Source of the DNA: Candidatus Zipacnadia bacterium
Lineage (GTDB): Bacteria > Armatimonadota > Zipacnadia > Zipacnadales > Zipacnadaceae
Assembly: GCA_029821195.1 (NCBI GenBank)
Contig: JALGTU010000009.1
Location: 1-41,439 of the forward strand
Direction: 5' to 3'
Length of the DNA stretch: 41,439 nucleotides
In this document: positions 15,768 through 18,466 of the stretch, one piece after another
Position numbering within the stretch: the first letter of the stretch is position 1
Layout of the letters: the number at the start of each line of letters is the position of its first letter
The notes under the pieces: model-generated
Seen by the model: only the letters and a program-made list of their open reading frames with translations
Databases searched by the model: none
Told to the model about the DNA's origin: nothing
Program-made: the position numbers and the translations under genes

Positions 15768-16183
15768 AGCGGACGACTCCGCGGTCAACCAGCGTGCCTT
15801 ACCACACCCCGCCGAAGAACTGCTTCCCTACCAAACCACTACCCACCTCCGCCCCGGCAGATTCGCCCGTAGAAGCATTGGCGCAGACCAGAGGATGAAC
15901 CAGCCTAGAGAAGATCACATCGCCAGTTACGCTGAGTCATTCCCGGCGTGTAAAATCTTGGAAACTCATGTTTAGGAGATTAGATGCGTAGGTATACTTT
16001 AGGTGTCCCTGATAATTTCGGGAGAGGGCCTTGACAAGTTTCTGCGATTATGCTACAATACTAAACGAAAGCTAAGCGCCGAGTAAGATGGCGGGCAAGC
16101 TATCACAGTTTTTTGTTGCACTGACATAGAGAATGATCTGAGCAAGTGCGAGCGTGGCGGAAACGGTACCTGGAGGGATACCA
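15768..16183. other. Intergenic region between the glycosyltransferase and the pilin cluster
   Basis: No coding frame was recognised in these 416 bases. The right part is poorer in GC than its surroundings and holds the promoter at 16031-16059. The leader from about 16066 to the first pilin is about 118 bases and can form a small hairpin (GGTA/TACC) around the pilin's ribosome-binding site. No known riboswitch was recognised. Confidence 0.5.
16031..16059 (+). promoter_or_regulatory. Near-consensus promoter of the Flp pilin cluster
   Basis: TTGACA (16031-16036), 17-base spacer, TACAAT (16054-16059). It is the only strong promoter seen before the pilin genes and would start near 16066. Its strength fits the high demand for a major pilin. 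Confidence 0.85.
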
Positions 16184-16333
16184 ATGAGCGAAATCATGTA
16201 CAGGGCCGCAGCAGAGCAGGGCGCACTGGTCTTAACCCAGTATGCCCTGATGATTCCCCTGTTAGTCGCCGCCGTATTGGCGGGATGGCGAGCAGTGGGC
16301 AACGTGCTGCGGTCAGACCTAAGTCAGTTGTAA
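16184..16333 (+). CDS. Atypical Flp-family pilin-like peptide (flp copy 1)
   Basis: A 49-residue peptide starting MSEIMYRAAAEQG and continuing ALVLTQYALMIPLLVAA, with the hydrophobic helix of Flp pilins. GGAGG at 16172-16176 supports the ATG. The family normally has G followed at mature +5 by E then Y; here the residue before Tyr is Gln and lies at +6 after the only plausible glycine. It is therefore either a minor or non-processed pilin or an early stage of decay. It is the first gene after the promoter and is followed by a long hairpin. Confidence 0.65.
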   Translation: MSEIMYRAAAEQGALVLTQYALMIPLLVAAVLAGWRAVGNVLRSDLSQL

Positions 16334-16335
16334 CA

Positions 16336-16404
16336 GCTTCGCCAGTGGACTCTGTGGCTGACGACCGAAACGCAACAAGCGGTCAGATGCTCGACTGGCG
16401 AAGC
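16336..16404 (+). repeat. Hairpin between flp copies 1 and 2
   Basis: GCTTCGCCAGT (16336-16346) and ACTGGCGAAGC (16394-16404) form a perfect 11-base stem. The 47-base interior holds a second, bulged stem (CTGA and CCG with CGGTCAG). No T-run follows, so it looks like an RNA-processing or 3'-stabilising structure, not a full terminator. It begins two bases after the copy 1 stop. Confidence 0.75.
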
Positions 16405-16444
16405 ACCCAGCACCCAAGACTAATGTGGGAAAGGAGGGACCAAA

Positions 16445-16618
16445 GTGGAGAAGATCAAGGCTCTGTGGCACGACGAAGATGGTGTCACCACGGTGGAATA
16501 CGCGTTGCTGCTTGCTGTTCTGATCGTTGGCGCCGTTACGATCTGGACCGCGCTGAAGGGCAGCATCCAGACCGCTGTTGACGCCGCGGGTAGCGAACTG
16601 GAAAGCCCCGGCGCCTAG
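16445..16618 (+). CDS. flp: Flp-type pilin (flp copy 2), probable major pilin
   Basis: A 57-residue prepilin. A short leader ending in WHDEDG precedes mature VTTVEYALLLAVLIVGA, with Glu at +5 and Tyr at +6 as required by TadV-type peptidases. A single hydrophobic helix is followed by a short polar tail (TALKGSIQTAVDAAGSEL). GTG start with AGGAGG at 16432-16437, the best ribosome-binding site of the cluster. With its fully canonical sequence it is the best candidate for the main Tad pilus subunit. It is too short for most gene-finding cut-offs. Confidence 0.9.
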   Translation: MEKIKALWHDEDGVTTVEYALLLAVLIVGAVTIWTALKGSIQTAVDAAGSELESPGA

Positions 16619-16988
16619 TTAGAGAACGACGCGACTTTCACCATCTCGCGTGACCAGCTAGGTCTCGCGAGAACCGGAGAGAACGATGCTCGTAGCCAGC
16701 GTCTGGAAAACTGGCAGCAAAACCACGACCGGCTCAGACCCGACCGACAACTTAATGCCGTTTGACTCACCACAACCCAAAAACCAAACGGGTCGCGAGC
16801 AAGTTCTCGCCCGCAGCTACAATCCAAGTCCCACTGACGTGCTAAGCTGCGGAGAATACAGTGGCGGGGGGGAACTGGCAAACCACAATACCCTGCGAGA
16901 GTGGGCAATAGGCGAGCAGGTTTGTCCAGCTGGTTCTCCCCGCCAATCTTTTAGCAGCAGCAACAAGCACAGAAAGTAGCTTGGGGAC
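16619..16988. other. Gap between flp copies 2 and 3
   Basis: No convincing gene in 370 bases. A 97-codon frame (16686-16979) has a fair ribosome-binding site (GGAGAG) but a composition of Ser/Thr/Asn/Gly without a family match, and is probably chance. Two hairpins are present: the strong one at 16644-16672 and a short one (GCGAG/CTCGC) near 16795-16810. No promoter was seen. Confidence 0.45.
16644..16672 (+). repeat. Strong hairpin after flp copy 2
   Basis: TCTCGCG, T, GACC (16644-16655) pairs with GGTC, T, CGCGAGA (16661-16672) around the loop AGCTA. This is 11 pairs with one T-T mismatch. It starts 25 bases after the stop codon and lacks a T-run. It could halt exonucleases and keep the pilin message abundant, or cause partial termination. 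Confidence 0.75.
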
Positions 16989-17183
16989 ATGGGAGTACTC
17001 AGCTTCAAGCAAGCAATAGCTGAATTCTGGAACGACCAACGCGGTGTTACCAGCGTCGAGTACGCCGTCCTGCTGTGCGGCTTGCTAATTGGTGCGGCAA
17101 CGATCTGGATGATCCTCACCACCAGCCTGGAAACGGCGGCGGGTAACGCCGGTACGAGCCTGGATGAAGCTAGGGGCCTGTAG
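16989..17183 (+). CDS. flp: Flp-type pilin (flp copy 3)
   Basis: A 64-residue prepilin with a leader ending in FWNDQRG and mature VTSVEYAVLLCGLLIGAA, with Glu at +5 and Tyr at +6. The tail is longer and more acidic than copy 2 (TSLETAAGNAGTSLDEARGL), and the helix contains a cysteine. The ribosome-binding region before the ATG is weak (GGGG placed very close). It is probably a minor pilin or an alternative subunit. Confidence 0.85.
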   Translation: MGVLSFKQAIAEFWNDQRGVTSVEYAVLLCGLLIGAATIWMILTTSLETAAGNAGTSLDEARGL

Positions 17184-17547
17184 AGGTTGCTGACCCGGCT
17201 CGAATCATTCTCGTCCTGATGAGCTCAGCATCAACCGACAACGCTTAAGCTGCTGGCCAACGTACCAACTAATTAATCATGCATATCACCGATTGGCTAC
17301 AATTGTTTATAAGGGTAGGATTACTAATCAAGCGGAAGCAACTCCGTTGTGAGCACCTCGCAACCTTCGTATTCTGGCGGCTCTCGTGGCGGGGGAAGCT
17401 CAGGGAACACAAGGAATTCCGCTGCCGGCTAAGGGATCCCTTGCTGGGGGAGCGCGTTTCGCCGTGGCGAACCTGCCGCCTATGTGAGCATAAGAAGGTT
17501 GTTGCCGGAACTGCCCAAAGAGTAGCAGCATTGATAACGGACGGAAT
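17184..17547. other. Gap between flp copies 3 and 4, locally AT-richer
   Basis: No gene was recognised in 364 bases. A frame at 17279-17563 runs through but resembles no family and overlaps the degenerate pilin in another frame. The stretch 17260-17340 is clearly AT-richer than neighbouring genes. The eight-mer TGTGAGCA occurs at 17348-17355 and 17483-17490, and again at 17699-17706. The region probably contains decayed sequence. Confidence 0.4.
17185..17236 (+). repeat. Bulged hairpin after flp copy 3
   Basis: GGTTG plus CTGA (17185-17193) can pair with TCAG plus CAACC within 17225-17236, leaving a three-base bulge and a loop of about 31 bases. It starts two bases after the stop, in the same relative place as the copy 1 hairpin, but is weaker. 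Confidence 0.4.
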
Positions 17548-17655
17548 GACGAGCACGGGCTGACGACGATTGAATATGCGCTGTTACTGTCAGCCCTAGC
17601 CGTGGCGCTGACCGTCACATGGCACGCCTTAGGCGATAGCATGCGGTGTTGTTGA
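17548..17655 (+). pseudogene. Degenerate Flp pilin (flp copy 4)
   Basis: The frame reads NDEHG followed by LTTIEYALLLSALAVALTV, an obvious Flp processing site with Glu at +5 and Tyr at +6. It stops after HALGDSMRCC, about 15-20 residues early for the group. Upstream in this frame there is a TAA at 17491-17493 and no ATG, GTG or TTG between that stop and the pilin motif, so the leader has been lost. It has no recognisable hairpin behind it, unlike the intact copies. Rescue by a frameshift from the frame that ends at 17563 cannot be excluded. Confidence 0.75.
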
Positions 17656-17709
17656 CGATACCAATAAGATTCTCGCTCCCAATCAAAGTGGAGTACGCTG
17701 TGAGCAAAG

Positions 17710-17895
17710 ATGACCGAGAAGACCAGAATAATGCTCAGCCAGCTCTGGAAAGATGAAGCAGGAGTATCAACCGTTGAGTACGCGCTGCTCACCGCGGTGC
17801 TGGTAGGCGCCGGGGCGGCAATGTGGACGGCCCTGCGCGGATCGGTTTCATCCGTAATGGCCGACATCGCTCAAGCCTTCAGCGAAGGCCAATAG
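17710..17895 (+). CDS. flp: Flp-type pilin (flp copy 5)
   Basis: A 61-residue prepilin with a leader ending in LWKDEAG and mature VSTVEYALLTAVLVGAG, with canonical Glu +5 and Tyr +6. The tail MWTALRGSVSSVMADIAQAF resembles copy 2 (WTALKGS), so these two are the closest pair by eye. The start ATG 17710 has only a weak upstream GAGC; an in-frame ATG at 17731 is also possible. The prepilin peptidase gene follows 46 bases later. Confidence 0.9.
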   Translation: MTEKTRIMLSQLWKDEAGVSTVEYALLTAVLVGAGAAMWTALRGSVSSVMADIAQAFSEGQ

Positions 17896-17901
17896 CACAG
17901 G

Positions 17902-17917
17902 CCTGCCTCACGGCAGG
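17902..17917 (+). repeat. Hairpin after flp copy 5
   Basis: CCTGCC, loop TCAC, GGCAGG: six perfect GC-rich pairs starting seven bases after the stop codon and 25 bases before the prepilin peptidase start. It could lower read-through from the pilins into the assembly genes. Confidence 0.6.
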
Positions 17918-17941: not shown

Positions 17942-18466
17942 GTGATTACGACGGTTCTTACAGCTCTGACAATACTTCTGGTGGTTGTGGCGGCCTACAC
18001 CGACATCCAGTGGGGCAGGATACTCAATGCTCTGACCATGCCAGGAATCCTGCTGGGCCTGATTCTCAACTCGGTCCGGGCCGGCTCAGAAGGACTCTTA
18101 CTGAGCCTGGGGGGAATCGCCTTGGGCTTGTGTCTGTTCCTGGTGAGTGCCGTCTTCGGGCGGATTGTGGGCGGCGGCGACGTTAAGCTGCTGATGGCCG
18201 TCGGCGCCCTGCAAGGACCATCAATTCTGGTCTGGGCACTGTTTTATGCCGCCATTATCGGGGGCATTCTCGCCATTCTCATCGCAGTGCGCCACGGTAT
18301 CCTGATGGATAAGATCAAGGCGCTGTTTGCCAGTTGCTACTTGCGGTTGGCCTGCAAAGTACCCATGGATATTCAAGAAGGCCCGGCCGGCGGGCCGCGC
18401 CTGCCCTACGCCATCGCCATCAGCTCCGGAACCCTGGTGGCTATGCTCATGTCCCACGTATCCTGA
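17942..18466 (+). CDS. tadV: Prepilin peptidase of the Tad type (A24 family, short form)
   Basis: Inner-membrane aspartyl protease that cleaves Flp and TadE-like prepilins; also called CpaA. The catalytic pair is Asp21 in AAYTDIQWGRI and Asp80 in GGGDVKLL (GxGD motif). At 174 residues it is the short form without the methyltransferase domain of PilD. About five hydrophobic helices are visible. GTG start with GGAG about 11 bases upstream; no ATG is in frame nearby. It lies between the pilins and tadE, as in many Tad loci. Confidence 0.92.
   Translation: MITTVLTALTILLVVVAAYTDIQWGRILNALTMPGILLGLILNSVRAGSEGLLLSLGGIALGLCLFLVSAVFGRIVGGGDVKLLMAVGALQGPSILVWALFYAAIIGGILAILIAVRHGILMDKIKALFASCYLRLACKVPMDIQEGPAGGPRLPYAIAISSGTLVAMLMSHVS

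Follow-up and report, generated by a model that had tools for sequence, protein, structure and literature searches.

A conserved multi-helix RNA behind the probable major pilin gene in a Tad/Flp pilus locus of Zipacnadia

Directly behind the gene of the probable major Flp pilin in a Tad/Flp pilus locus of an uncultured Zipacnadia bacterium (Armatimonadota; the class is described in PMC10290634), we observed a conserved multi-helix RNA of ~320 bases, a candidate RNA family that was previously unlisted. The element fills most of spacer 2, the DNA between the second and third of five tandem Flp-type sequences in the window, i.e. the whole stretch of 41,439 nt that was analysed (G000:C76). A sequence-only reading of this window had proposed that each intact pilin copy is followed by a hairpin and that mRNA segmentation at these hairpins sets unequal amounts of the pilin subunits. 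Unequal pilin output is still the best reading of the operon; the part that did not stand is one hairpin per copy.

The pilin gene cluster

The pilin cluster is followed on its 3′ side by genes for a prepilin peptidase, TadE, RcpC/CpaB, a secretin and a CpaE-like protein. It was found also in all six further genomes of the genus that served as relatives, thus in seven of seven metagenome-assembled genomes with the window. Among named genomes the closest are those of Candidatus Zipacnadia / candidate division WS1 (Armatimonadota). The seven sequences fall into two clades: the window with G003, and the other five genomes. Coordinates of the features are given in Table 1. A few tens of bases 5′ of the promoter a second conserved block was seen in all seven genomes (~15990-16002, TAGGTATACTTTA); this block, AGGTATACTT with GTTTAG 5′ of it, may be another promoter or a regulator site.

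Four of the Flp copies had been taken as intact. This holds for copies 2, 3 and 5, in which the processing motif G|xxxxEY is present as GVTTVEYA, GVTSVEYA and GVSTVEYA, respectively; their matches to PF04964 have E-values of 8.6e-6 to 6e-4, under Pfam's curated cut-off. Copy 1 is not an intact Flp and is best regarded as a conserved paralogue of Flp-like type, because it has no Pfam match (at E 0.1) and lacks the motif in all seven genomes, Q replacing E and the glycine being displaced. In each of them the operon opens with copy 1, which codes for an Flp-like membrane peptide of 43-49 aa whose helix carries a conserved proline. Upstream of flp genes, homologues were seen in two or more further genera of the family (sites of copy 1: window 16184-16333; L038, L039, L040, L041, L042, L043; also L044, L045, L052, L054). 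Copy 1 is possibly an uncleaved partner in assembly or regulation.

Copy 4 was confirmed to be degenerate and to have no hairpin behind it: a common start codon is absent in frame, and the 3′ end is shifted relative to the intact relative in G003. Also confirmed was the claim that copy 2 has the best ribosome-binding site. Its predicted duplex with the anti-Shine-Dalgarno sequence has an energy of −16 to −17 kcal/mol, versus −1.5 to −10 kcal/mol for the other copies (six genomes scored).

Copy 2 together with its RNA is retained while the minor pilin copies turn over (window 17184-17655; L038; L039; L043): the window has a broken copy 4, G003 has a degraded copy 5, and G005 lacks copy 3. Copy 2 is partly duplicated in G001, perhaps by assembly. 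In L040 and L042 a similar leader precedes both copy 3 and copy 4 (GAATTGTC...GCAATACTTG...CAACAATGC); therefore gene and leader were probably duplicated together.

Table 1. Features of the pilin cluster and of the second tad locus (window positions unless a locus is named)
Feature	Position	Strand	Remarks
Promoter	16031-16059	+	TTGACA, 17 nt, TG-extended TACAAT; kept in 7 genomes
Copy 1	16184-16333	+	49-aa Flp-like paralogue without G|xxxxEY processing motif; first gene of operon
Inverted repeat 3′ of copy 1	16336-16404	+	Strong in window; not kept in relatives
Copy 2	16445-16618	+	Probable major Flp pilin; by far strongest ribosome-binding site, conserved
Structured RNA, whole element	16628-16951	+	Spacer 2; conserved in 7 of 7 genus genomes; single copy
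5′ hairpin	16644-16672	+	Hairpin here in most relatives, sequence changed
P1	16676-16811	+	17-pair long-range stem, arms 16676-16693 / 16795-16811; compensatory changes
P2	16737-16794	+	6-pair helix, GACCCG 16737-16742 / CGGGTC 16789-16794; adjoins P1; compensatory changes
P3	16813-16850	+	Hairpin, 8 pairs (7 in window)
P4	16863-16944	+	Terminator-like stem, then AATCTTTT in window; compensatory changes
Copy 3	16989-17183	+	Minor Flp-like pilin; weak ribosome-binding site; missing from G005
Weak inverted repeat 3′ of copy 3	17185-17236	+	No better than shuffles; not conserved
Copy 4 remnant	17557-17655	+	Flp core; no common start codon; 3′ end shifted; gene intact in relatives
Copy 5	17710-17895	+	Minor Flp-like pilin; G003 version degraded
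6-pair GC hairpin 3′ of copy 5	17902-17917	+	Not conserved
TadV-type prepilin peptidase (Peptidase_A24)	17942-18466	+	First downstream tad gene
Second-locus hairpin	L048 3961-4022		Equivalents in L049, L050, L051, L056, L057, L036

The structured RNA in spacer 2

Spacer 2 has a length of ~370-420 nt, with a core of ~300 nt conserved in all seven genomes. The hairpin reported here by the sequence-only reading is the first hairpin only of a larger structure, in which the helices P1 to P4 follow. The consensus fold of the spacer has a z-score of −12.1 against alignment shuffles, with none of 100 shuffles as good; the P1 part alone gave −11.5 and the P3/P4 part alone −7.1. For comparison, the same shuffles gave z-scores of +0.5 to −1.3 for spacers 1, 3 and 5, of −0.1 to −1.8 for pilin genes 1-3 and of −2.6 for the leader.

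Two-sided compensatory changes were observed in each of P1, P2, P3 and P4 among the seven sequences; many or most of them separate the window and G003 from the other five, and the independent events are fewer than the counts. Sliding the register lowers the pairing in P1-P4 from 89-91% to 34-61%; the covariation score was matched by 1-2 of 500 shuffles and stood above all register slides. Between the clades, 65% of paired positions are conserved versus 42% of unpaired ones. The junction segment adjoining P1 (alignment columns 22-41) is kept like the stems, at 63%, while the apical loops are poorly conserved. That stems are better kept than most loops favours a scaffold over a ligand-binding RNA.

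All of the reported hairpins had been said to lack a T-run; P4, a second hairpin of spacer 2 that had been overlooked, does have a short one in the window. The T-run after P4 is clear in five of the seven genomes (TTTCTTTTT-type), short or weak in the window and absent in G003. Thus, taking a Rho-independent terminator as a GC-rich stem directly followed by a T-run, five genomes fit, the window does so weakly and G003 does not.

With a covariance model of the element we obtained matches in 7 of 46 genomes of the class, all from one genus and one per genome; no match was found beyond the genus in this search, which used stricter filters, so that weak matches can be lost. A known RNA family was ruled out with Rfam (release 15): nothing matched at the gathering threshold, the best weak hit being atpB RNA (E 0.19; 19.9 bits, with 37.4 needed), and five relatives searched gave no match up to E 1. 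A mobile repeat was ruled out by the single copy in the window genome and the single covariance-model match per genome. Protein coding was rejected as well: a 97-codon ORF at 16686 is open only in the window and G003, substitutions by codon position are 41/30/33 (2/5/20 in copy 2), and there is no 3-base periodicity.

Repeats behind the other pilin genes and at a second tad locus

Inverted repeats do exist at all four positions reported, 16336-16404, 16644-16672, 17185-17236 and 17902-17917. To compare them with chance we folded the first 80 nt past each stop codon of the window against dinucleotide-preserving shuffles. An excess of folding was seen after copy 1 (z −3.4, p 0.003) and copy 2 (z −3.2, p 0.003). 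It was borderline after copy 5 (z −1.8, p 0.06; p 0.013 for the 46-nt spacer) and missing after copy 3 (z +1.1, p 0.90; p 0.84 for the whole of spacer 3). Pairing conserved in the relatives, which the segmentation idea had called for, was found with compensatory changes after copy 2, and not after copies 1, 3 and 5. With column shuffles the consensus folds of spacers 1, 3 and 5 had z-scores of −1.3, −1.1 (+0.5 with the window included) and −0.9, respectively, which left no conserved structure in the other spacers. When the relatives were folded one by one, none reached comparable significance after copies 3 and 5; after copy 1, G003 alone did so (p 0.017), in a sequence different from that of the window. 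A hairpin after each intact copy is therefore not a conserved design: the repeats behind copies 1 and 5 are unconserved, that behind copy 3 is at chance level and copy 1 has no processing motif.

A second, paralogous tad locus of the same genus has a single flp gene. Directly 3′ of it stands a GC-rich hairpin of 13 pairs that is conserved (z −6.1, with 90% of cells paired and weak covariation) and is not followed by a T-run. Throughout the class, strong folding (z < −2) right after flp genes was found in 22% of cases versus 12% for control genes (p 0.008, kinship not corrected for). What remains as a rule is that structure lies behind the major pilin gene, and not behind every copy. In G009, a member of another genus, long spacers stand between near-identical flp genes (L052 3000-4100) and hold large inverted repeats, in sequence unrelated to the spacer-2 element.

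Possible function and comparison with known systems

We lean, with confidence a little above even, towards the spacer-2 RNA being a 3′-end or partial-terminator element by which the operon mRNA is divided into two portions, a plentiful one for the major pilin and a scarce one for the minor pilins and the tad genes. Transcription would start at the conserved promoter (16031) and run through copy 1 and the strongly translated copy 2, which we infer to encode the major pilin. The folded RNA would form next, at the 3′ end of the major-pilin message, with the 5′ hairpin, the P1/P2 domain, P3 and the terminator-like P4 in this order. P4 would halt a share of the polymerases, and the folded 3′ end would block 3′-to-5′ decay, so that the major-pilin mRNA would be abundant and stable. 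Read-through would then provide the minor pilins (copies 3-5) and the Tad machinery at a low level.

Several observations argue for this partial-terminator reading. A conserved fold, as is looked for in the structure of a segmentation element, was found where a gene with strong translation signals gives way to genes whose signals are weak. The consensus fold (z −12.1), the covariation in P1-P4, the T-run of P4 in five of seven genomes and the ribosome-binding site of copy 2 point the same way, as do the noncoding nature of the spacer, the better conservation of the stems and the lack of any promoter-like site on the + strand between P4 and copy 3 in the window. Further support comes from the hairpin of the second locus (z −6.1), the folding excess behind flp genes and the precedents in PMC5927463 and PMC12075869. 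In the papers searched, nothing usable turned up on described terminators behind flp genes. Termination may be inefficient in the window and G003, where the T-run is weak and absent, respectively. Against a plain partial terminator speaks the size: a simple terminator does not need a multi-helix RNA of 320 nt, which suggests an additional task.

The size also counts in favour of the main rival, a conditional attenuator, which we hold to be possible though rather unlikely. Here P1 (1:2) would let the P4 terminator (3:4) form, the alternative to both being an antiterminator helix (2:3) of the 3′ arm of P1 and the 5′ arm of P4; a protein, a ligand or translation near P1 would alter read-through into the minor pilin and tad genes. 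The strand order, 1-2-3-4, is that of a classical attenuator, a 2:3 helix can be drawn for each of the seven sequences (−12 to −25 kcal/mol), and the junction next to P1 is conserved to the same degree as the stems. However, 27% of column-shuffled alignments yielded a stem kept as well as 2:3, in six of the seven sequences 2:3 is weaker than 1:2, apical loops are variable and a short ORF starting in P1 is not conserved. It is somewhat more doubtful still that the element belongs to a new class of regulated attenuators, which would sense a signal or a pilus-assembly factor via the P1/P2 junction and gate polymerase into the minor pilins and the Tad machinery; if true, production of the machine would be matched to the supply of pilin.

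A small RNA acting in trans, either derived from the 3′-UTR or independently transcribed, would agree with an element of ~320 nt that is folded, noncoding and present once per genome, and that has a terminator-like end, but no promoter-like site was seen at the start of the element in the window, and the element was found solely behind the major flp gene and within the genus; we consider such an RNA improbable. The original idea of a segmentation hairpin for every pilin gene has in its favour that in one genome the folding after copies 1, 2 and 5 exceeds that of shuffled sequence or comes close to doing so. With the failure of copy 3 in the same test and the lack of conservation after copies 1, 3 and 5, it was largely refuted by comparison and is now very unlikely. 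Fortuitous pairing without function, in GC-rich intergenic DNA, accounts for the inverted repeat behind copy 3 and may do so for those behind copies 1 and 5; as an account of spacer 2, with its structure of z −12 and covariation in all seven genomes, chance is refuted, and as a general explanation it is the hardest to credit.

The partial-terminator reading has its closest parallel in the intercistronic decay-blocking hairpins and differential mRNA decay of the puf and papBA operons, which are discussed in PMC5927463. There, too, a structure lies behind a highly needed gene of an operon and unequal amounts arise from one promoter, and papBA is a pilin operon as well. Unlike the puf and papBA structures, the spacer-2 RNA has ~320 nt, several long-range helices and a terminator-like end, and belongs to a different phylum and pilus type. 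P4, with a GC-rich stem and then a T-run in five of seven genomes, resembles a Rho-independent or partial terminator within an operon, whereas the conserved P1/P2/P3 domain preceding it would be superfluous for a terminator, and the T-run is poor or lacking in the clade of the window. With its folded domain upstream of a terminator-like stem and a possible alternative antiterminator helix, the element is reminiscent of leader attenuators and of riboswitches with a terminator platform. In contrast to these, it stands between genes of one operon and has no strongly conserved apical loops; it has neither a known ligand nor a match in Rfam.

For Tad pili, little has been described of how one operon delivers major pilin, minor pilins and machine at very different levels. 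With a large conserved RNA exactly at the boundary in question, and a simpler hairpin at the corresponding boundary of the paralogous locus, the question can be addressed with a reporter. For the Tad pilus of Myxococcus, with the major pilin KilP and the minor Flp pilins KilK and KilO of low transcription (PMC12075869), we found no description of a comparable RNA. Both systems appear to combine one major Flp pilin and Flp-like minor pilins at a low level, which in our case is presumed, with one Tad machine; unlike in Myxococcus, the Flp copies here form a single tandem cluster, in which the RNA separates the major copy from the minor ones.
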